Positions 20,375-46,574 of a stretch of 64,000 bases of DNA are shown piece by piece. A model generated the notes under the pieces. It searched no databases and was not told where the DNA came from. It saw nothing but the letters and a program-made list of their open reading frames with translations. The stretch is from Chloroflexota bacterium. GTDB lineage: Bacteria > Chloroflexota > Anaerolineae > Anaerolineales > Villigracilaceae. The stretch spans positions 1 through 64,000 of the forward strand of contig JACRBL010000051.1 in NCBI GenBank assembly GCA_016234485.1, given 5' to 3'. The position numbers and the translations under genes were made by a program. Position 1 is the first letter of the stretch, and every line of letters starts with the position of its first letter.

Positions 20375-21286
20375 TTAAATCACATCCCACGGGACAACCG
20401 AACTGGGCGTGGGAATCGGCGTGGGCGTTTGTGGCACGAACGGCTCCACCTTTTCGGGCTGGGGAGGGATGGTCTCGAGGGCGGTCTCTTCGGTGGCGAC
20501 AAAGATATAAACGCCGACCAGCATCGCAACGGTCAGGACAGCCGCGATGGGGAAGTAGATGCGCTGACGCTTGCGCAGGGTTGCCGCGTCCACGGGATGT
20601 TCGGTCGCGCCCGCTTTGATGTCCGCGAGTTCGAGCGGGTGTTCGTGGAGCATTTCCTCTTCCGTCATGCGTCCTGTCCACATGGCTTTGTTGAAGTGTT
20701 TGAGATGCACGCCGTAAAAATGCCAGAGCAGAATGGCGAGAACGGCCAGCACGGCTTCTCCGCCATGCGCGGCCTTCGCGGCGGGGATGAACTCACCCGG
20801 TAGGAAGGTCGCGGCGGTGACGGGGTTCCACATCAAAAAGCCCGTCACGCCCATGACCACCGTCCCCCACACGAAGGCCCAATATTCGGCTTTTTCCTCG
20901 AAGGTGTAGCGTCCCATTTGCGGACGGGACTTTCGCAGGCCGATGTTGTAGAGCAGGGCGAAGAGCGCGTCTTTGGCATCCTGGAAGACGGGCAGCATGG
21001 ACATGCGCTGGCGCTCCACGAAAACTTTGTAGCCAGCCGATAGGATGTGATACATCGTGCCAAACATCATCACGATGGCGGCCACGTGATGGATGGCGCG
21101 CAGGTTTTCGATTCCGCCGAGCAGGTTGACGAATGTAATCGCCAGCGAATGTGCGGCGTATTTTTGCGAAAGTCCAGTGAGGCCGAGCGTGGTGAACGAA
21201 AGAAGCATGGTGACATGCTCCACGCGTTGCGCCAGCGAGAAACGGACGTAGGTGCGTTGCGTTTCCTGTTTGGTTTTAGCGGCCAT
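20375..21286 (-). CDS. Membrane cytochrome b (formate dehydrogenase gamma / Ni-Fe hydrogenase b-type-like)
   Basis: The product is 303 residues with about five membrane segments. Histidines suited to haem b ligation lie in RVEHVTMLLSF, LRAIHHVAAIVMMFGTMYH and AHGGEAVLAVLAILLWHFYGVHLKHF. The pattern fits di-haem cytochromes b that connect the quinone pool to periplasmic partners. A C-terminal membrane segment is followed by a short Pro/Thr tail. It is translationally coupled (TAATG) to the upstream nonahaem cytochrome c, so the pair is probably a quinone-linked electron-transfer module. The partner reductase is not identified. Confidence 0.8.
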   Translation of the reverse strand: MAAKTKQETQRTYVRFSLAQRVEHVTMLLSFTTLGLTGLSQKYAAHSLAITFVNLLGGIENLRAIHHVAAIVMMFGTMYHILSAGYKVFVERQRMSMLPVFQDAKDALFALLYNIGLRKSRPQMGRYTFEEKAEYWAFVWGTVVMGVTGFLMWNPVTAATFLPGEFIPAAKAAHGGEAVLAVLAILLWHFYGVHLKHFNKAMWTGRMTEEEMLHEHPLELADIKAGATEHPVDAATLRKRQRIYFPIAAVLTVAMLVGVYIFVATEETALETIPPQPEKVEPFVPQTPTPIPTPSSVVPWDVI

Positions 21287-22464
21287 TAGTGACCTCCCTT
21301 CATGCGGTTGATCAAGCGTCGGATGAAGTCAGTGACAACAAAGACCGCCATGCCGCCCAGCACGGCGGGGATGAAGAATTGGTAGAAGAGATTCACGTAA
21401 TACACCAATGGATGTTTTTCAGGGCTGGCATCGTAGTGACTCATCCACGCGTCGGGGAAGTTGGCGGTGGCGGCGGGATGGCAACGCTGGCATTTTCCGA
21501 GCAGGTTTTCCTTGAGCGCGATGCCTGTCTGCGGATTGTCGGTCTTGGAGATGTTGTGCGTGCCGTGACAATCCACGCAGACGGGCTTGTTGGTGGGCAG
21601 GTCGGGAGAGTTCTGCTCGAAGAGAGTCACGGTCGTGCCGTGATAATCGGCCACGTAGGTATCGAGGACGTTCGTGGAGATCTCGTACTTGTCCATGATC
21701 GAAGCGTCGGTGTGGCATTTGGCGCACAACAACGGGATGTTGTTGCGGAATTCCACCGTGCGCGGATCGCCGATGTTGTGGTTGCCGTGACAGACGATGC
21801 AGTTCGGTACGTCTTGGTTGGCTTCAGATAGCAAAGCCTCGCCGTGGACGCTTTCCTTGTACATGGCGGCAATGTCGCTATGGCAACGGGCGCACACGTC
21901 TGCCACTTCCGCGCGCTCGGCGGCGCCTTCGTTGTAGTGCGGGTTATGGCAGTCAGCGCACATGGCTGCGTTGTGGTTGCCCTCGCCCAGCGTCATTTCA
22001 TGGACGCCCGTCATGGCGTTTTTGGCTTCTTCCTCGTGGCAATTTTTGCAGGCGTTTTGCGTGGCCTGGTACAGCGCGAAATTAAATTCGCGCAGTCCCG
22101 TCTTGGCGTAGTCGGGATGCGGGAAGGTGGTGATGTCCGCGTGACAGGTGTCGCAGGAAACCTCTTCCTGTCCATGCACAGATTGGTTGAAGGCCGCTTC
22201 GTTGATCGTCAACAACACTTGCGCGTCGCCAACATTCATGATCTTATCGGCTTCCCCGTGGCAGAACAGACACTGATCGTTGGGGATCGCGTTTCCCGTC
22301 GGCGAGGGAGACGCGGCCGAAACGGAGGCCGCTAAAGGCATGCCCAGAGCGACGTCGAAGGGTCTTGCGAGAGACGCGAAGGCCGCCGCGAGGAGCGCCA
22401 GTCCCACGCTCCAGAGCAGGAGGCGGAGTCGGGCGCGTCCATTTGATTTGAACAATCTTCTCAT
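21286..22464 (-). CDS. Nonahaem membrane-anchored cytochrome c
   Basis: The product is about 392 residues with nine CXXCH sites (CLFCH, CDTCH, CKNCH, CADCH, CARCH, CIVCH, CAKCH, CVDCH, CQRCH), an N-terminal signal segment and a C-terminal membrane helix (FYQFFIPAVLGGMAVFVVTDF). ATG 22464 is preferred over 22470. The AGGAG site lies only 1 nt from the first ATG but about 7 nt from the second. It probably exchanges electrons between cytochrome b and an external acceptor or donor. The family resembles cytochrome c3/c554-like multihaem proteins, with exact function unknown. Confidence 0.85.
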   Translation of the reverse strand: MRRLFKSNGRARLRLLLWSVGLALLAAAFASLARPFDVALGMPLAASVSAASPSPTGNAIPNDQCLFCHGEADKIMNVGDAQVLLTINEAAFNQSVHGQEEVSCDTCHADITTFPHPDYAKTGLREFNFALYQATQNACKNCHEEEAKNAMTGVHEMTLGEGNHNAAMCADCHNPHYNEGAAERAEVADVCARCHSDIAAMYKESVHGEALLSEANQDVPNCIVCHGNHNIGDPRTVEFRNNIPLLCAKCHTDASIMDKYEISTNVLDTYVADYHGTTVTLFEQNSPDLPTNKPVCVDCHGTHNISKTDNPQTGIALKENLLGKCQRCHPAATANFPDAWMSHYDASPEKHPLVYYVNLFYQFFIPAVLGGMAVFVVTDFIRRLINRMKGGH

Positions 22465-22676
22465 TAACATTCTCCTGATATCAGGATTACAAGTGGGGTA
22501 TTTGCCCCATTCTATACGTTTGTGTCCGATTTGAGAATGTGCTTTATATCATGGAAATTGAGTGATTTACGAAAAGCAGGCTCGCAAGCGGGGATGAAAG
22601 TCACACAAGCAAGGTGATGGTTGCTACAAAGGTTTGCGAAAGCCTTTGTTGTACAATACCCAATGGAGGCAGTCGA

Positions 22677-35926: not shown

Positions 35927-37042
35927 TCATTCTTCTTCCAATGGTAAATTCTTCATGGCAAACCCAAAGGCGAGAATGCCCGCAGAAAACACCCCGACTG
36001 TCACTGCCACTTCCAGCAACTGCGGGAAATACGGCTCGCCCGCCATGCCGACCAAACCAATATTGAGACGATAGAGGATCAAGCCCAGCACGGTCAACAA
36101 CGCCGCGCGGAAGATCCAGGCGGTGTTCGTCCGTAATGACGGGGTAAGGAGAATCGCGATTGGCAGGATGATTCCGATCAAGTTTTCGAGCAGGAACATA
36201 AAACTCTGAAAACTGCCATCGAAGACCAATCCCATCTCGCCCGCCGCAATCAAGTCCGCGAGTTTGATGAGCAGAAGAACGCTCAAGGCGATCAACATAC
36301 CCCTGGAAAGTCCCTCGAAAATGTCCTTACGGATGTGACCGCCCAGGAAGCGATGCGAAAGCGCACACTCGAAGATCACCATCCCAAAGCCAACACTGAT
36401 GGCCGAAACCAGGAAGATCAACGGCAACAGTGGCGTGTACCAAAGCGGGTACATCTTCAACGGGACGATCAGGAAGAGCGATCCCAGCGAGGATTGATGC
36501 ATGGTGGAAAGCGTCACGCCCAAAATGACGACGGGAATGGAAATCTTTTTCAAGAATCCAAGCAGGCCGGTCCAACCCAGTTTTTCCAAAATGGGCGGAC
36601 TGAATTCAATCAACAACACCGCGGTGTAGGTCATCACGCACATGCCCACTTCAAACAACGGCGAATGAAGATTCCAATAGATGAGCATGTGCCAGATTCT
36701 CTGCGGCTGGCCCAAATCCACCATTAGGGCCAGGATCACCATGAGGTAGCCGAGGAAACCCGTCAACAGGGCGGGGCGCAAAATGGGACGATACTTTTCG
36801 ATGTGGAAGATGTGGACCGTGGCCGCCAGAATGAACGCGCCCGCCGAAATGGGCACGCCCACCAAAAGGTCAAAACTGATCCAAATGCCCCACGGACGCG
36901 AATCGCTCAGGCTCGAAACCTGGTCGAACCCATCCACCCAGCGGAAGAGGGCCGCAAACGCGCCGAGCGCGGCAAGCGCCAGCAGGACGAGAGTCCCGAT
37001 GGATGCCTGTTTTTTAATGATCGGGAGGGTGATGCTGGTCAT
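35927..37042 (-). CDS. NrfD/PsrC-like quinone-interacting membrane subunit
   Basis: The product is 371 residues with about nine to ten membrane segments. It has the NrfD pattern: RPWGIWISFDLLVGVPISAGAFILAATVHIF, MVILALMVDLGQPQRIWHMLIYWNLHSPLFEVGMCVM, and STMHQSSLGSLFLIVP. NrfD subunits exchange electrons with quinones for a peripheral Fe-S protein. It overlaps the Fe-S gene by 4 nt, so the pair forms one complex. The catalytic partner is not visible, and the octahaem cytochrome is the likely terminal component. Confidence 0.9.
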   Translation of the reverse strand: MTSITLPIIKKQASIGTLVLLALAALGAFAALFRWVDGFDQVSSLSDSRPWGIWISFDLLVGVPISAGAFILAATVHIFHIEKYRPILRPALLTGFLGYLMVILALMVDLGQPQRIWHMLIYWNLHSPLFEVGMCVMTYTAVLLIEFSPPILEKLGWTGLLGFLKKISIPVVILGVTLSTMHQSSLGSLFLIVPLKMYPLWYTPLLPLIFLVSAISVGFGMVIFECALSHRFLGGHIRKDIFEGLSRGMLIALSVLLLIKLADLIAAGEMGLVFDGSFQSFMFLLENLIGIILPIAILLTPSLRTNTAWIFRAALLTVLGLILYRLNIGLVGMAGEPYFPQLLEVAVTVGVFSAGILAFGFAMKNLPLEEE

Positions 37043-37914
37043 GCTTTTTTCTCCTCCGCTTCTTTATCTGATTTTTTTGAACTGCGGTACACCGCGGCCA
37101 TCGCGCCGCCGACGCCGAAGAAAATGGCGGGGACAATATTGAGCGCCCAACGCGTCCGATCGGGGAGCGGTTTGGGGTCGAGCGCGGGCAGGCCGATGGC
37201 TTCAAACGGGACCGCAGACAGGATCAGGATGGACGTGCCGCCTCCCTCGAATTCTCCGTAGACGCGATCTTCAAAATACTTGCCAGCGTTCACCGCGATG
37301 CGCGCCTTGGCGATCTCGATCAGGTCGCCGCGCTTGCCAAACATCAGCGCCTGCTTGGGACAAATCTCCGCGCAGGCGGGACCATTCTCGCGGTGATAGC
37401 ACATCTCGCACTTGCGGATGAGCGGATACGCCAGCGACCAATCGTAGCGCGGCGCTCCGAACGCGCAGGCCTGCATGCAATAACGACAACCGATGCACTT
37501 GTACGAGTCGTAAATGACAGGGCCGTTCTCGATCTTGTGCAACGCGCTCACAGGGCAGGATGCCGCGCAGGCAGGTTCCACGCAGTGCATACATTGAAAT
37601 TTGCGGAACGATTTCTGCGAGCCGTCTTCCGACTGATACAGTTTGATGAGCGTGAACGTGTTGCCGCTCAGGTCATCCACATCCTCTTCGGACAGTTTGT
37701 TGTAGCTTTTACAGGCCACTTCGCACTCGCGACAACCACTGCATTTGGTGGCGTCGTAAAGCATGGCCCAATGCTCTTCGGGCGGCAGTTCCTCTCCCGA
37801 CGATGCGAAGGATGGATTCGCCGTCGCGGCGGCCATGAGCAAGCCGCTCGCGGCCGCGCCGATCAACTTCAAAAACTCGCGACGCGATAACTTTTGGGTG
37901 TGTTCGTTTTCCAT
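37039..37914 (-). CDS. Tat-exported 4x[4Fe-4S] ferredoxin-like electron-transfer subunit (NrfC/DmsB-like)
   Basis: The product is 291 residues. A twin-arginine-type leader LSRREFLKLIGAAASGLLM points to export. Four cluster motifs follow: CSGCRECEVACKS, CMHCVEPACAASCPV, CIGCRYCMQACAFGAPR and CEMCYHRENGPACAEICP. A C-terminal membrane helix (LNIVPAIFFGVGGAMAAVY) anchors it. It wires NrfD to the cytochrome. ATG 37914 is chosen because upstream in-frame sequence overlaps the cytochrome gene. It starts 4 nt after that gene's stop. Confidence 0.92.
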   Translation of the reverse strand: MENEHTQKLSRREFLKLIGAAASGLLMAAATANPSFASSGEELPPEEHWAMLYDATKCSGCRECEVACKSYNKLSEEDVDDLSGNTFTLIKLYQSEDGSQKSFRKFQCMHCVEPACAASCPVSALHKIENGPVIYDSYKCIGCRYCMQACAFGAPRYDWSLAYPLIRKCEMCYHRENGPACAEICPKQALMFGKRGDLIEIAKARIAVNAGKYFEDRVYGEFEGGGTSILILSAVPFEAIGLPALDPKPLPDRTRWALNIVPAIFFGVGGAMAAVYRSSKKSDKEAEEKKA

Positions 37915-37918
37915 GACG

Positions 37919-39133
37919 TTATTCCTCATCCTCGCGTTTCTTCTCTTCGTCCTTCTTTCCGCTCGATCGTTTGCGGAAGATGGAAGACAGCGCTTCCTTG
38001 AAACTGACCTGTGGACGGCCATCCAACCTGCGCGTGACCGTGAACTCAAAAATTCCGAAGATCGCAAGGAGAGCCAGAGTCCAAAAAACCCAGTTCCAAT
38101 TCCGTTTTGGCGTGGCGACCAGTTTGTTTATTTCGTTTTCGGTCAGGGCTGGAAAATCCCGCGCTTCCCACGCTAACTGATCCACCTCTTCGAGCGAATA
38201 GCCCAGCGCCATGAAATCGGCGCGCACCTTCTCATCCATCAGGTGACAGTCCGCGCACTGCGGCGCCGACTCGAGCCGCGAAACGCGATGCACGACCGGC
38301 CAATTCATCTGGTCTTCCACGTAACTGCCGAGCGCCTCGTGACTCGTCCCCGCGCGGCTGGCTACACTGAAAGCGATCTCGGATGTGCAATCGAAACCTT
38401 TGAAAAACTTCGAAGTGTCCTCGTGCTGAAAATTGAACGTGAATGTGTGCGGCACATCAAGCATATGACAGTCAGCGCAGGCGATGTTCTCCTGCAAATG
38501 GATCTCGCTGAGGGTCGCGTCCATTGCGCTTAGATCCTCGGTGTGACAATCTTTGCACATATCATCGGGATTCTCGAATAAAACCTTCTGGCTGTGCGGA
38601 TCATGACAATTAACACAGCGCACTTCATTCTCGGTGGAGTGCCCCGAAAGGCGCGCCTCGCCCAACGTGGCGGGGTGGCATCGTCCGCAATATTCCTCGT
38701 CGGAGCGGGCGGGGATTTCGGCGGGGGGATGCTCCGCGCCATCCGCCCCGTGGCAGGTCTCGCATGAAACGCCGATGGCCGCGTATTCGCCGCTCTCCGC
38801 GTTGTAAGTCGCCTCATGGCACAAGAGACAATCCTCAGGCCGCTCCATGTTGTCCCAGCCTTCGAGGAAAACGGGATCATCCGCCGAATGCGCGTGCGGA
38901 CTGCCCATCAACGCATCCCGTTTATCGAGATGACACTCCACGCAAGCCTTCGCTTCCGCCTCTTCGGTTGGGGTGGGCGCGGCCAATTCGGACGGGGTGG
39001 CCGTGGTCTGCGCGAGCGGCGACGGATTCGATCCCGCGCTGACAGAGCCTGCGATCAACAGCAGGCCGATCAAACCAAACAACAACCCAGCCAGGATGAT
39101 CTTGTTCTTCTTCGACGTGCGGCGATTGTTCAT
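37919..39133 (-). CDS. Octahaem membrane-anchored cytochrome c
   Basis: The product is 404 residues with eight CXXCH sites (CVECH, CLLCH, CETCH, CGRCH, CVNCH, CKDCH, CADCH, CADCH). It has an N-terminal signal/anchor (IILAGLLFGLIGLLLIAGSVSAG), a C-terminal membrane helix (WNWVFWTLALLAIFGIFEF) and a charged tail. It is the first gene of the operon with the Fe-S and NrfD subunits. Its layout parallels the nonahaem protein at 21286. It probably carries electrons between NrfD-FeS and an outside partner. The acceptor is unknown. Confidence 0.88.
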   Translation of the reverse strand: MNNRRTSKKNKIILAGLLFGLIGLLLIAGSVSAGSNPSPLAQTTATPSELAAPTPTEEAEAKACVECHLDKRDALMGSPHAHSADDPVFLEGWDNMERPEDCLLCHEATYNAESGEYAAIGVSCETCHGADGAEHPPAEIPARSDEEYCGRCHPATLGEARLSGHSTENEVRCVNCHDPHSQKVLFENPDDMCKDCHTEDLSAMDATLSEIHLQENIACADCHMLDVPHTFTFNFQHEDTSKFFKGFDCTSEIAFSVASRAGTSHEALGSYVEDQMNWPVVHRVSRLESAPQCADCHLMDEKVRADFMALGYSLEEVDQLAWEARDFPALTENEINKLVATPKRNWNWVFWTLALLAIFGIFEFTVTRRLDGRPQVSFKEALSSIFRKRSSGKKDEEKKREDEE

Positions 39134-39234: not shown

Positions 39235-40164
39235 TCATTCGACTTTCGTTTTTACTTGCTCTTCCATTGGATTTGCGCCAGCCGCCAGAAAATTCCAAAA
39301 GGCGGATTGCGCGTTGGTGGCGGGACGACGATCGTTGTGTCCCACAAAGATTTGACGGCAAATGTTCATGCCGCGAATTTTTATCTCGGCCACTTTATCT
39401 TTGCATAGACGTTCCACTACCATCTTGGAAACAAACCCGACGCCAATCCCCTCCTGCACCGCGAGCGCGATGGCTTCGGCATTGCCGAGGGTAATGAGGA
39501 TTCGCAAATCCTTGATGGGAATATTCTTTTCCGCCAGCGCGTCGCGAATGGCGTTGTAAGTTCCTGAGCTGATTTCGCGCAAGATGAATTCGCCGTCGAG
39601 CAGTTCCTGCGGTTCGATCTCGCCGCGTTCCGCCCAGGGGTGGTCGAGCGGCGCGATCAGGATGATCGGGTCGCAAAGGAACGGCAGAGATTCCACATCG
39701 GAATAATGATCGGACTTCATGCTAAAGAGGGCGAAATGCGCCTCGCCTTCGGCCACGCTGCGGAGGGCGTCGGTCTGCGCCACGACCTGGCAGGTGACGC
39801 GTACCTGCGGGTGGCTGCGATGGAAATTGGCAAGCAGGTTGGGCAGGATGTATTTGCCCGGCGTGGTACTGCAACAAACGATCAAGTGGCCGTAAATGCT
39901 TCCCTTTAGCGAGACCATCATCTCGTCCATGCGGATCGAGAGGGAGACTGCCTCGCGCGCCAGCGGCAGGAGGGCGAGTCCCGCGTCAGTCAGCTCAATG
40001 TTGCGTCCGGTGCGGATGAAGAGTTCCGTGTCGAAGTGACGTTCCAGATATTGGATGTGCTGGCTGACGCTGGGTTGGGTCATGTGTAATTGTTGGGCGG
40101 TTTTCGTGAAGTTGAGGGTTTCAGCCGCAACCAAAAATACGTTGAGTTGATGAATATCGAGCAT
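39235..40164 (-). CDS. LysR-family transcriptional regulator
   Basis: The product is 309 residues. The N-terminal winged helix has LNVFLVAAETLNFTKTAQQLHMTQPSVSQHIQYLERHFDTELFIRTGRNIELTDAG. The C-terminal effector domain starts at GHLIVCCSTTPGKYILPNLL and has a CysB/CbbR-like layout. AAGGAG lies upstream of ATG 40164. It is upstream of, and on the same strand as, the octahaem-FeS-NrfD operon and divergent from the twelve-haem cytochrome, so it probably controls one or both. The co-inducer is unknown. Confidence 0.92.
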   Translation of the reverse strand: MLDIHQLNVFLVAAETLNFTKTAQQLHMTQPSVSQHIQYLERHFDTELFIRTGRNIELTDAGLALLPLAREAVSLSIRMDEMMVSLKGSIYGHLIVCCSTTPGKYILPNLLANFHRSHPQVRVTCQVVAQTDALRSVAEGEAHFALFSMKSDHYSDVESLPFLCDPIILIAPLDHPWAERGEIEPQELLDGEFILREISSGTYNAIRDALAEKNIPIKDLRILITLGNAEAIALAVQEGIGVGFVSKMVVERLCKDKVAEIKIRGMNICRQIFVGHNDRRPATNAQSAFWNFLAAGANPMEEQVKTKVE

Positions 40165-40360: not shown

Positions 40361-41800
40361 ATGCCAAACTTCAAAAAATGGTTCGTTTTCTTTGCGGTAA
40401 GCGCGATGGCGCTTTCCAGTTGCCAGCCTGCCGAAACGGCAAATGCTGGCGCACCCAAGGTCGTGCGCGAAATTCCCCTGCTCTTCCAATCGGTAGTGAA
40501 GGGCGCGCAGGAGGAAGCGCCGAATGAATGTTTGAAATGCCATTCGGACAAGGAACGCCTGATCGAAACCGCCGACCCCGTGGAGGCGATTGCCGAAAGC
40601 GAATCCAAGGGAGTTGGCTGAGGGGGCGAGGTGGCTCCGTTGGAGCCATGGGAAAAAGTTTTAGTAGACGGAAAGAAATTCCCCGAAGAAGTGCATGGGC
40701 ATCTTGACTGCACGGAATGTCACGCGGGGACGCAATCAGCGGACAAGGAAACCGCACACACTGACCTGGTTGCCCGCCCAAGCGAAGGCGACCCGAACGC
40801 CTGCACCGCATGTCACGAGGATGTGACTACCACCTACTCCACTAGTCTCCATTCCAATTTGCAGGGATATTGGACGGCATTGGACACGCGCAGCGTCCCC
40901 GAAAATCACGCCACGCTGGAGACGGCTTTTGGAAATCATTGCGCGAAGTGCCATGCCTCCTGCGGCGATTGTCACGTGGCGCAACCTGCCAGCGTGGGCG
41001 GAGGGTTGTTCGAGGGACATGTATTCACCCAACAGCCGCCGATGACGCGCTCGTGCACGGCCTGTCACGGAAGCCGCGTGGGCAATGAATATCTTGGCAA
41101 GAACGAGGGCTTCGCGGGCGACGTCCACTTCCGCGAGGGACGCATGAACTGCGTGGATTGCCATAGCAACCACGAACTCCACGGCCAGCCCATCAACTGC
41201 CAGGAATGTCACACTGCGCCCGAAGATATGACCATGACGCCCGCCGACCATCGTTACGCGGGACTGCAAACGCCCACCTGCGAATCGTGCCATCCGAACA
41301 CGATCACGGGCAAGGACAACATTGAGATGCACACCGTCCACGGCGCGGATCTTTCGTGCCAGGTCTGCCACTCGGTCACCTACACCAATTGCGACGGTTG
41401 TCACGTAGCGATCAGCGAGAAATCGGGCAAGCCATTCTTCGAGACCGAGAAAACGTATTTCACTTTCCTGATCGGCTTGAATCCGCAACGGAGTTACACG
41501 CGTCCTTATAAGTTCGTGCCGTTGCGTCACGTGCCTGTGAGCGCCAATAGTTTCTCGTTCTATGGCGACAACCTGCTCCCCAATTACAACATGATGTCCA
41601 CGTGGGTCTATGCCACGCCGCACAACATTCAACTCAACACGCCGCAGACGGAATCGTGCAACGCCTGTCACGGCAACGAAAGTCTTTTCCTGACTATTGA
41701 CAAGGTCAACCCTGAGGAGGCGGATGCCAATTCCAATGTAATCGTCGAAGAAGTTCCCGCTCCTGTTGAGGAAACAGAAGAAGAAACTGGAACGCCTTAA
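40361..41800 (+). CDS. Twelve-haem lipoprotein cytochrome c with in-frame UGA (candidate selenoprotein)
   Basis: Two same-frame segments, 40361-40618 and 40622-41800, are separated only by TGA at 40619-40621. Read through, the product is 479 residues with the UGA at position 87 (SKGVG-x-GGEVAPLEPWEKV). The first part has a lipoprotein signal (FAVSAMALSSCQP) and one CXXCH. The second has eleven more: CTECH, CTACH, CAKCH, CGDCH, CTACH, CVDCH, CQECH, CESCH, CQVCH, CDGCH, CNACH. A restart at GTG 40631 would lack any export signal, so haem attachment would fail. A hairpin fitting the bacterial SECIS pattern follows the UGA. The alternative is a recent nonsense mutation. No selA, selB or selC is in the window. 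Confidence 0.75.
40619..40648 (+). promoter_or_regulatory. Candidate bacterial SECIS element (UGA plus hairpin)
   Basis: TGA is followed after 10 nt by a 7-bp stem TGGCTCC / GGAGCCA (40632-40638 and 40642-40648) with apical loop GTT (40639-40641). The loop starts 17 nt after the UGA and has G first. This fits the general bacterial SECIS rules as I recall them (loop 16-37 nt downstream, G in the first two loop positions). The 3-nt loop is at the lower limit. Confidence 0.55.
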
Positions 41801-41947: not shown

Positions 41948-43663
41948 ATGACTAAGAAACTGCACCTGTTCGTTGTCCTCATGCTGGCTCTCAGCATGAT
42001 CCTCAGCGCCTGCGGCGCGCCCGCCGTAGCGACTGAACCGCCCGTCGTCGCGACCGAACCGCCGGTAGTCGTCACCGAACCGCCCGTCGTCGCGCCCGAT
42101 GCGCAAGCATTGTTCACCGACCTCGCCGCCACGTTGACCTCCGACAACGGCTATGGCTCCGTGCCCGCCGCCAAGTTCAGCGAAGAGATGGTGGATAAGC
42201 CCGCCTACCTGCTGGATGTGCGCGAAGTGTCCGAGATCGAAGCGGATGGCTTCATTGAAGGCGCGGTCAGCATCCCCGTGCGCGAAGTCCTCAACAACCT
42301 GGACAAACTGCCCGGACTCGATGAACCGATCGTCATCTACTGCGCCTCTGGTCACCGCGGCGCGATGGTGATGTCCTCGCTCAAACTGCTGGGCTACACC
42401 AATGTCCGCAACCTGGGCGGCGGCCTCGGCGGTTGGAAGAAAGCCAACTTGCCCGTCGTCACTGGCTCCCTGCCCGCGGCTCCCACCATCTTGAACAGCG
42501 CCGCGATCGTGGAAGATCAGGCCTTGTATGACATGCTCAACGGCTTCCTGAGCGGACTGCCCGAAGGCTTCCTCACCGTCAAATCTGACAAACTCGCTGA
42601 AGAACTCGCGAGCGCGGCTCCCGTGCTGATTGACGTCCGCTCCACTGGCGAGTGGGACAAAGACGGCTACATCGAAGGCGCGATCAATATCCCGTTCAAC
42701 GATTTCTTCGCCAGCCTCGATAAACTCCCCGCCAAAGACGCGAACATCGTCATCTACTGCGGCTCTGGTCACCGCGGCGCCATCCTCCTGATGGCAATGA
42801 AGTTGATGGGTTACGAGAACGTCCGCAACCTAGGCGGCGGCCTCGGCGCCTGGAAAGCCGCCAAGATGCCCGTCACTGGCTGGATTGACTGGTCTGCCAA
42901 GTGGCCGGAATACATCGCCGCCCTGCCCGCGGGCTACGGCACGATCAAAGCCCCCGACCTCAACACCGCCCTGGCTGGCTCTCCCGTCCCCTTCCTGCTC
43001 GATGTGCGCGAAGCCGCTGAAATCACCAATGACGGATTCATCGCGGGCGCGGTCAACATCCCCGTACGCGAAGTCCTCAACAGCCTCGATAAACTTCCCG
43101 CCAAAGACCAGCCCATCATCGTCTACTGCGCTTCGGGCGCGCGCGGCGCCATGATCATGGCCTCGCTCCAGATGCTCGGCTACACCGACGTGAAAAACCT
43201 CGCGGGCGGACTCAACGGCTGGAAGAAAGCCGAACTCCCCGTAGAGACCGCCACCGCTCCCGCCGCCCCCGTAGCGGGTACCGTTCCCGAAGTGGACGCG
43301 ACCCTCTTCCGCGACCTGAACGGCTTCGTCTCCACCCTGCCCGAAGGCTTCTACACCGTGAAGGCCGCCGACCTGAATACCGAGCTGGCCTCTGCCACCA
43401 AGCCCTTCATCGTGGACGTCCGCACGGCTGAAGAACTCGCCAACGGCTACATCGAAGGCGCGGCCCTCATCACCCTGACCGATTTTGCCGCGAACCTCGC
43501 GCAACTTCCCGCCAAGGATCAGCCCATCGTGGTGTTGTGCCAGTCTGGTCACCGCGGCGCGATCGTGATGATGTACCTGCGCATGATCGGCTACACCAAC
43601 GTCCGCAACCTGGCCGGCGGCATGAACGCCTGGGCCGCGGCGGAACTGCCCGTTGTGAAGTAA
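41948..43663 (+). CDS. Lipoprotein with four tandem rhodanese domains
   Basis: The product is 571 residues. The lipoprotein signal LALSMILSACGAP and a short repeated TEPPVV linker precede four rhodanese domains. Each has a catalytic Cys in a CxSGxRGA loop: Cys132 (YCASGHRGA), Cys271 (YCGSGHRGA), Cys394 (YCASGARGA) and Cys531 (LCQSGHRGA). Repeated blocks such as AGAVNIPVREVLNSLDKLP and YTNVRNLGGGLGGWK show internal duplication. Rhodaneses carry persulfide sulfur, so an outer-face sulfur-transfer role is plausible. AAGGAG precedes ATG 41948. It follows the twelve-haem cytochrome and precedes the HdrD-like gene. Confidence 0.92.
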   Translation: MTKKLHLFVVLMLALSMILSACGAPAVATEPPVVATEPPVVVTEPPVVAPDAQALFTDLAATLTSDNGYGSVPAAKFSEEMVDKPAYLLDVREVSEIEADGFIEGAVSIPVREVLNNLDKLPGLDEPIVIYCASGHRGAMVMSSLKLLGYTNVRNLGGGLGGWKKANLPVVTGSLPAAPTILNSAAIVEDQALYDMLNGFLSGLPEGFLTVKSDKLAEELASAAPVLIDVRSTGEWDKDGYIEGAINIPFNDFFASLDKLPAKDANIVIYCGSGHRGAILLMAMKLMGYENVRNLGGGLGAWKAAKMPVTGWIDWSAKWPEYIAALPAGYGTIKAPDLNTALAGSPVPFLLDVREAAEITNDGFIAGAVNIPVREVLNSLDKLPAKDQPIIVYCASGARGAMIMASLQMLGYTDVKNLAGGLNGWKKAELPVETATAPAAPVAGTVPEVDATLFRDLNGFVSTLPEGFYTVKAADLNTELASATKPFIVDVRTAEELANGYIEGAALITLTDFAANLAQLPAKDQPIVVLCQSGHRGAIVMMYLRMIGYTNVRNLAGGMNAWAAAELPVVK

Positions 43664-43902: not shown

Positions 43903-43939
43903 CCAGTTCAGCCAGCAGTTGAACTGCTGGCTGAACTGG
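43903..43939. repeat. 37-bp hairpin with GCAGTTGAACTGC core
   Basis: Perfect 18-bp arms CCAGTTCAGCCAGCAGTT (43903-43920) and their complement (43922-43939) flank a 1-nt centre. The repeat at 49013-49049 has the same geometry, with arms changed on both sides so that pairing is kept. It lies 18 nt before the start of the Fe-S oxidoreductase gene. Confidence 0.92.
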
Positions 43940-43957
43940 AAATTCTACGGAGGAACC

Positions 43958-45943
43958 ATGCTTACACTCGCCGAGAAAGTCCTCTTCGTCCTCGCGACCC
44001 TCGCGTCGCTTTATTACACCTATCGCGGCGCGAAACGCATCGTCGGCCACATCGCCAGCGGACAGGGCAAGGTCACCTGGTCGTTCATCTGGAAACGGAT
44101 TGGAGAACTCATCGTCAAGGTGGGATTGTTCCAACCCGTTTTTCGTTTCCGCTTCTGGCCGAGCCTCATGCACGGACTGATCGGCTGGGGCTTCCTCTCC
44201 TTCCTGCTCATCAACCTCGCAGACTTGATCTACGCCTACACTGGATGGAAACTGCTCGATCACGCGGGACTTTTTGGCGACATCTACCGCCTGATCGCGG
44301 ACGTGGCGAACGTGGCGATCCTCGTCGGCATCCTGTACATGATCGTCCGCCGCTTCCTCCTTCGACCTGCCACCTTGTCCACGCGCGGGACGACTCTCCT
44401 GCATCCGAAAGCGCGCTTCGGCATCCTGCGCGACTCGGCCATCGTGGCCACGTTCATCTTCATGCACAACTCCATGCGCCTGCTGGGAGAATCTTTCTAT
44501 ATCGCGTTGCAGGGTCACGCCGACCCGTGGCAACCGACCATTTCCGCCGCGGCCCGCCTCTGGTCAGGCATGAGCGAGGGCGCGTTGATCGCGGGCGAGC
44601 ACATCGCGTTCTGGCTGTCCATTGGCGCGGTGGTCGCGTTCCTTCCGTATTTCCCGTACAGCAAACATATCCACTTATTCTTTGCTCCGATCAATTTCGC
44701 GTTGAAACCTGAGCGCAAATCCATCGGACAGTTGAGCTACATCAATCTCGATGACCAGACCATCGAGCAATTCGGCGCGGCGAAGATGAAAGACTTGGGC
44801 TGGGAGCAGATCATGGACAGTTATGCCTGTATCATGTGCTTCCGTTGTCAGGAGGTTTGTCCCGCGTATAACACTGGGAAACTTTTGTCGCCTGCCGCGC
44901 TGGAGATCAACAAACGCTATCACCTGAATGGCGGCGGCGCGACGGATGTTGAATTGAAGGAACTGATCTCGGACGAGGCGGTTTGGGCGTGTACCTCGTG
45001 CGGCGCGTGCGTGGACATTTGTCCCGTTGGCAACGAGCCGATGCGCGACATTCTCGACATTCGCAGGAATCTTTCGATGATGGAAAGCGCCTTTCCAAAA
45101 CAGTTGGAGTCGGCGTTCAAGGGCATGGAACGCAACATGAACCCGTGGAATGTTTCGCAAGCAGACAGAATGAATTGGGCGCAGGGACAGAATGTGCCGA
45201 CCATCGAGCAGAATCCCGATCCCGACATTTTGTGGTGGGTGGGGTGCGCTCCCGCGACCGACGTCCGCGCGCAGAAGACCGCGCAGGCCTTCGCGAAAAT
45301 TTTGAACGCGGCGGGGATCAACTTTGCCGTGCTCGGCAAGAACGAACAATGCACAGGCGATTCGGCGCGACGCGCGGGACGCGAGGATATTTTCTTCGGG
45401 CTGGCATCGGCCAATGTGGAGATCCTGAATGAGGTGAAACCCAAGCGCATCGTCACCACTTGTCCGCATTGCCTGCACACGATCAAAAATGAGTATCCCG
45501 CGTTCGGCGGCAATTACGAAGTGATTCATCACACGCAACTCATCAACGAATTGGTCGGCTCGGGCAAGGTGCGGCTGGACATCAGCAAGGAATTGGTTTC
45601 CGTCACCTTCCACGATCCGTGCTATCTCGGACGGCACAACCAGGAGTTCAACGCGGCGCGCTCCACGCTGACCGCAACGGGCTCGCTCACCATCGAGATG
45701 CCGCGGCACGGAGCCAAGTCCTTCTGCTGTGGCGCGGGCGGCGCGCAGATGTGGAAGGAAGAAGAAGCAGGCTCAGATCGAGTGAACGAAGCGAGGTTCG
45801 CGGAAGCCAAAAAGACAGGCGCGGACGTGCTCGCGGTCGGCTGTCCGTTCTGCCTGACGATGATGAACGACGCGTCAAAAGCGGATGGGGATTCAATGAA
45901 GGTAAAAGATGTAGCGGAAATCGTGGCCGAAAAGATGATGTGA
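43958..45943 (+). CDS. Membrane Fe-S oxidoreductase (HdrD/GlpC-like, NarI-like N-terminus, two CCG domains)
   Basis: The product is 661 residues. About five membrane helices at the N-terminus resemble NarI/HdrE-type cytochrome b modules. Two [4Fe-4S] motifs follow: CIMCFRCQEVCPAYNTG and CTSCGACVDICPVGNEPM. Two CCG-type domains follow: CAPATDVRAQKTAQAF, then TTCPHCLHTIKNEYP and DPCYLGRHN, CCGAGGAQMW, VGCPFCLTMM. Such proteins link quinones to thiol/disulfide or organic acid redox reactions. GGAGG before ATG 43958 supports this start. With the rhodanese protein next door, sulfur-linked electron transfer is a reasonable guess, not shown. Confidence 0.88.
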   Translation: MLTLAEKVLFVLATLASLYYTYRGAKRIVGHIASGQGKVTWSFIWKRIGELIVKVGLFQPVFRFRFWPSLMHGLIGWGFLSFLLINLADLIYAYTGWKLLDHAGLFGDIYRLIADVANVAILVGILYMIVRRFLLRPATLSTRGTTLLHPKARFGILRDSAIVATFIFMHNSMRLLGESFYIALQGHADPWQPTISAAARLWSGMSEGALIAGEHIAFWLSIGAVVAFLPYFPYSKHIHLFFAPINFALKPERKSIGQLSYINLDDQTIEQFGAAKMKDLGWEQIMDSYACIMCFRCQEVCPAYNTGKLLSPAALEINKRYHLNGGGATDVELKELISDEAVWACTSCGACVDICPVGNEPMRDILDIRRNLSMMESAFPKQLESAFKGMERNMNPWNVSQADRMNWAQGQNVPTIEQNPDPDILWWVGCAPATDVRAQKTAQAFAKILNAAGINFAVLGKNEQCTGDSARRAGREDIFFGLASANVEILNEVKPKRIVTTCPHCLHTIKNEYPAFGGNYEVIHHTQLINELVGSGKVRLDISKELVSVTFHDPCYLGRHNQEFNAARSTLTATGSLTIEMPRHGAKSFCCGAGGAQMWKEEEAGSDRVNEARFAEAKKTGADVLAVGCPFCLTMMNDASKADGDSMKVKDVAEIVAEKMM

Positions 45944-45971: not shown

Positions 45972-46574
45972 ATGAAACGATTTTTATTGTTAGCCATTCT
46001 GGTATTGACGGCTTGCATCCCCCAACCCGCCACGCCATCGGGACCGAGCGCGGCGGAGATCGAGGCGATGATCGGCACGTCGGTCGCGTTGACCGTCACC
46101 GCACACGCGCAGACGAAGGCCGCGATCCCCTCGCCGACGCCGACTGCTTCGCAAACCGAGACCCCATCCCCCACCGTCACCGTCACGGCGAGCCCATTCC
46201 CCACGTTGACGCCGTTCTCCACGTCCACGAAATTTCCGACCAGCGCTCCCGCCGATTACGCCTGCGCGGTGGTCAACAAATCGCCAGGCGATAATTCCAT
46301 CTTCAAGCCCAACAAGGATTTTGATATCAAGTTCTGGCTGAGGAACGTCGGTACGCACAAATGGGACAAGGGCGCGGACCTGTCATATCACGATGGGACG
46401 AAGATGATCGTGGGCAACACCGTGTATGAACTGCCCGAAGTGAAGCCAGGCCAACAGGTGGGGCCGTTCATCTTCGATGCAAAATCTCCAAAGAAGATCG
46501 GCGATTTTGTGATGCGGCTCAAGATGCAGGGAGGATTTTGCTATCCGTACATCAAGATTTTGGTGAGAAAGTAA
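45972..46574 (+). CDS. Lipoprotein with Nbr1 FW-type Ig-like domain
   Basis: The product is 200 residues. A lipoprotein signal (LLAILVLTACIPQP) is followed by a Ser/Thr/Pro-rich linker and a C-terminal domain DNSIFKPNKDFDIKFWLRNVGTHKWDKGADLSYHDG. That domain matches the Nbr1_FW (four-tryptophan) Ig-like fold. Such domains are common in surface proteins of Chloroflexota. The likely role is binding at the cell surface, with unknown ligand. GGAGG lies upstream of ATG 45972. Confidence 0.85.
   Translation: MKRFLLLAILVLTACIPQPATPSGPSAAEIEAMIGTSVALTVTAHAQTKAAIPSPTPTASQTETPSPTVTVTASPFPTLTPFSTSTKFPTSAPADYACAVVNKSPGDNSIFKPNKDFDIKFWLRNVGTHKWDKGADLSYHDGTKMIVGNTVYELPEVKPGQQVGPFIFDAKSPKKIGDFVMRLKMQGGFCYPYIKILVRK

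Follow-up and report, generated by a model that had tools for sequence, protein, structure and literature searches.

A putative selenocysteine-containing twelve-haem cytochrome of Anaerolineae and its rhodanese neighbour

A multihaem cytochrome gene in the window (the whole stretch of 64,000 nucleotides analysed here) is almost certainly a single cistron in which UGA 40619-40621 is decoded as selenocysteine (Sec). Taken as one package of evidence, with the chemistry left out, Sec decoding and a tie of this cytochrome to the neighbouring rhodanese appear likely. The features that carry this finding are the following.

40361..41800, plus strand: gene of the putative Sec-containing 12-haem lipoprotein cytochrome (479 aa with U87), from read-through translation and homologues
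40619..40621, plus strand: in-frame TGA, probably read as Sec, motif GxGU[G/A], the same codon in 62/62 distinct Sec-site stretches read
40632..40648, plus strand: candidate SECIS hairpin with a 7 bp stem and the apical loop GUU at 40639-40641, from folding, covariation and codon lock
41948..43663, plus strand: lipoprotein with four rhodanese domains (PF00581, four stretches), predicted partner from adjacency at homologous loci

The frame 40361-41800 is interrupted only by TGA 40619-40621, at residue 87 of the read-through translation, and is terminated by TAA 41798-41800. Its N-terminus is a lipoprotein-type start, MPNFKKWFVFFAVSAMALSSC, in which the lipobox LSSC can be read. The translation contains 12 CXXCH motifs, one before the TGA and 11 after it, and 11 of the 12 are family-wide in the family alignment. 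Its sequence combines multiple CXXCH motifs with an export signal, the defining features of a multihaem c-type cytochrome, and the protein would be exported and lipid-anchored. The ORF downstream of the TGA has its first start at GTG 40631 and no signal peptide. These observations agree with the earlier note, which had described a lipoprotein cytochrome gene interrupted by a single TGA, one haem site before it and eleven after, and a second part that would lack an export signal on its own. No NCBIfam model matched the cytochrome over its cut-off. A sequence search of the PDB gave weak generic cytochrome matches alone, mostly NrfA, and an AlphaFold2 model built from 7 sequences (pLDDT 30.5) was unusable.

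In a first homologue search, 72 of 298 Anaerolineae genomes had the family, and most strong matches contain one TGA. A profile search of 396 Anaerolineae genomes gave 77 strong matches in 75 genomes, with a TGA in 70/77; the sampled genomes are mostly drafts. Position and motif of the TGA are identical in all 62 distinct stretches, and TGA forms are also found in two genomes from other classes of Chloroflexota. A sequencing error at codon 40619-40621 is implausible because the same TGA is conserved in dozens of species. The earlier note had proposed an alignment to see whether residue 87 is Cys or Sec in homologues; it is Sec in the TGA forms and Cys in none of the 77 strong matches from the 396 genomes. 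Cys homologues at the Sec site are common among selenoproteins and are not required, though their total absence is unusual. The residues found instead are Trp in L043/L089 (TGG), Leu in L040/L090 and His in L086. The site is lost in L082, in the second copy of L083 and apparently in L084, and the L085 contig is too short to cover it. Locus L083 (2582-8600) has two copies about 2.4 kb apart, the first with Sec and a nearby rhodanese, the second with neither Sec nor an adjacent rhodanese. At L089 (genome G062), TGG stands for TGA, the hairpin is intact and the rhodanese gene is missing from the locus, while two congeneric species keep the TGA. With its stem still intact, this Trp form seems to have lost Sec recently.

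Downstream of the TGA, after a 10-nt spacer, the arms TGGCTCC (40632-40638) and GGAGCCA (40642-40648) enclose the loop GTT (40639-40641), with a minimum free energy of -12.9 to -13.7 kcal/mol. Sequence and folding thus bear out the 7-bp hairpin with a G-first loop reported before, and the further check of this stretch as a SECIS element was passed strongly on covariation and codon lock. Among 56 distinct stretches, 95.2% of cells in the seven-pair stem form a pair. Both sides have changed in 23 cells, compared with 5.1 in shuffles that ignore relatedness (0/500 as high), and slid registers, which retain relatedness, are 41-54% paired. RNAalifold recovers the same stem. Pairs are swapped among homologues (GGCTCC/GGAGCC, GCCTCC/GGAGGC and CCCTCC/GGAGGG), which explains the protein-level swap between APLEP and PPLEA. 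Codons +5 to +8 (CCT, CCG, TTG and GAG) are held to a single synonymous codon at 0.96-1.00; the 145 other conserved columns all lie below, reaching 0.91 at most. The Leu and His forms have a disrupted stem. No SECIS family of Rfam matched this stretch of the window.

A genome without Sec machinery would have spoken against this reading, but selA, selB, selC and selD are all present in the window's genome (4.46 Mb, 94% complete). The tRNA-Sec scores 69.3 bits against a cut-off of 47, and SelA (558.3 bits), SelB (343.5 bits) and SelD (353.9 bits) each exceed their cut-offs. The SelD gene itself (G000:C8:234851-235783, L049) has an in-frame TGA and a hairpin with a G-first GUU apical loop, as in the cytochrome, yet this hairpin lies farther from its UGA, with the loop about 33 nt downstream. 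A tRNA-Sec over cut-off is found in 254/298 Anaerolineae genomes and is so common in the class that its presence there is uninformative. Nine cytochrome-carrier genomes, all fragmented drafts, give weak tRNA-Sec matches (E above 1e-9). A conserved in-frame UGA, a downstream SECIS hairpin and the four sel genes, by which selenoproteins are recognised, are all found here; a Cys homologue is not. Sec insertion at the cytochrome UGA is very likely on these grounds.

Two other readings of the codon can be weighed against this evidence. UGA might be read as Trp or by non-specific read-through, in keeping with the TGG at the Sec codon of one homologue (L043/L089). However, many ordinary genes in the window end in TGA, so the codon is not reassigned wholesale, and elsewhere Leu or His stands in for Sec or the site is lost; together with the covarying hairpin, the codon lock and the full Sec machinery, this makes such decoding very improbable. 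Even less credible is a true stop at UGA, with two genes or a pseudogene. An ORF from GTG 40631 does exist mechanically, but the codons from UGA to GTG show conservation at the protein level, homologues do not retain GTG as a start, the second part would have no export signal of its own and dozens of species share the TGA. Both readings are rejected in view of the hairpin covariation, the Sec machinery and the recurrent TGA.

The rhodanese and cytochrome genes are neighbours on one strand; the rhodanese follows the cytochrome in the window's relatives and precedes it in other clades. An adjacent rhodanese is present at 54/54 Sec loci with enough flank (fused in one) and at 0/7 non-Sec loci; loci with a contig end too near the cytochrome were excluded by hand from this count. 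On a tree of 72 rows the Sec label must change at least five times, and the Sec and rhodanese labels agree in 5/5 independent pairs (sign test p=0.0625, the minimum attainable with five). At L060:3349-5551, on the minus strand, a single frame encodes a rhodanese domain ahead of the Sec cytochrome, and this predicted fusion is a natural link between the two. Where Sec relatives, e.g. L062, have the rhodanese, the Trp and Leu loci instead have a directly abutting gene for a 13-haem cytochrome. Genome context makes a functional tie between Sec cytochrome and rhodanese likely, and the two proteins may also be physical partners.

Further genes at the locus could connect the cytochrome to regulation and to the membrane.

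39235..40164, minus strand: divergent LysR regulator, closest in NCBIfam to the selenium metabolism-associated family NF040786 (209.5 bits, cut-off 250)
43919..45943, plus strand: HdrD-like iron-sulfur protein carrying CCG cysteine-rich domains, predicted to link electron flow to the membrane
37919..39133, minus strand: 8-haem c-type cytochrome of the adjacent module
37039..38067, minus strand: ferredoxin-type iron-sulfur subunit, HmcB/HybA-like, family scores below cut-offs
35927..37042, minus strand: NrfD-type membrane subunit, HybB/HmcC-like

The divergent LysR gene is found at many homologous loci. Orthologues score 229, 241 and 254 bits against NF040786 (LysR_Sec_metab, cut-off 250 bits), over the cut-off in L108. 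An HdrD-like gene near the cytochrome cluster also occurs in L009, L096 and L097, and at many relatives' loci NrfD and HmcB/HybA-like genes with another cytochrome accompany the Sec cytochrome. Elsewhere in the window, a lipoprotein, probably exported and bearing an NBR1-like Ig domain (45972-46574), follows the HdrD-like gene, and a second cytochrome module lies at 20375-22470, with a 9-haem cytochrome beside a cytochrome b561-type gene.

Based on these observations, we propose, with a probability of roughly one in three, a respiratory enzyme that depends on Sec: an exported rhodanese would hand sulfane sulfur (or selenium) to a haem-wired selenolate. UGA 40619-40621 is very probably decoded by SelB and tRNA-Sec, directed by the hairpin immediately downstream. 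Sec, positioned between haems 1 and 2 of the predicted exported 12-haem cytochrome, would lie in a Gly-rich loop. Thiosulfate, polysulfide or a similar compound would supply the sulfane-sulfur (or selenium) atom that the exported rhodanese loads, and the Sec selenolate would take or cleave the rhodanese persulfide. Such persulfide chemistry at Sec with rhodanese-borne sulfur is a tentative suggestion, though the one we favour. The haems would relay electrons to or from the membrane via the HdrD-like and NrfD/HmcB-like proteins, a path that the neighbouring genes may provide. No dsrA was found in six cytochrome carriers, which has no bearing on the use of sulfane sulfur.

The function of the Sec could be different. 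In Geobacter, the extHIJKL cluster comprises a Sec cytochrome, a rhodanese lipoprotein, a divergent LysR and a porin gene, and deletion of extI impairs selenite/tellurite reduction (PMC6148476, PMC5877670). By analogy the window cytochrome might reduce selenite, tellurite or metals, with the rhodanese handling selenium or protecting the system and no sulfur respiration involved; the nearness of the window LysR to a selenium-associated family fits this role, but no porin (ExtI) gene is seen beside the window cytochrome, the ExtKL model does not match it and the Sec of ExtKL lies after the haems, so that we regard this role as somewhat unlikely. Sec could also act as the distal ligand (His/Sec) tuning one haem without handling any substrate. 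The family alignment has 11 conserved CXXCH motifs against 10 clearly conserved free His, while a second, smaller alignment offers 11 candidate free His; it is this count of 10 (or 11) His for 11 haem motifs that gives the ligand role a place. The haem motifs are, however, kept in the Trp, Leu and His forms, and we consider the ligand role distinctly unlikely. If the proposed Sec-dependent respiratory enzyme exists, a rhodanese-fed, haem-wired selenolate would be a new route, widespread in Anaerolineae, by which sulfur or selenium compounds are reduced or oxidised.

The Sec cytochrome family is present in about a fifth of the sampled Anaerolineae (75/396). Selenoprotein genes are easy to mis-annotate as truncated or split. 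As no NCBIfam model reaches its cut-off and Cys homologues were not seen, searches for Sec/Cys pairs could miss this family. The repeated joint absence of Sec and rhodanese provides a direct, testable hypothesis for the role of selenium in a multihaem cytochrome, and the same question stands for Geobacter ExtKL.

A comparison with known selenoproteins corrects one statement of the earlier note, that multihaem cytochromes are rarely considered as selenoproteins: ExtKL and a GenBank-annotated octahaem entry are known, and what stands is that the window's family is absent from the list. A 2026 review counts 119 prokaryotic selenoprotein families, including ExtKL and an octahaem cytochrome, and none of its entries fits the window family (PMC13188914); no description of this family was found in the open-access literature. 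The tetrathionate reductase family octahaem cytochrome (TIGR04315), in its GenBank-annotated Sec form, is likewise multihaem with one Sec, but the window Sec cytochrome is unmatched by this model even at E=10, and the weak match is solely to the separate cytochrome 37919-39133. The DmsE, HmcA and GSU2203 multihaem cytochromes, which are not listed as Sec families, match weakly and far below cut-offs, probably via CXXCH spacing. ExtKL (NF040886) shares with the window a Sec multihaem c-type cytochrome and a cluster with rhodanese lipoprotein and divergent LysR. ExtKL is pentahaem, its Sec follows the haems and a porin is adjacent (PMC6148476, PMC5877670), whereas the window cytochrome has Sec between the first and second of its 12 haems and no porin in sight. 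NF040886, at its cut-off of 250 bits, matches neither the window cytochrome nor anything else in the window's genome, and ExtKL membership is rejected despite the rhodanese and divergent LysR layout. Geobacter extHIJKL is thus the nearest known system, similar in layout and distinct by this membership test, and the window protein very probably represents a new Sec-cytochrome family conserved across Anaerolineae.
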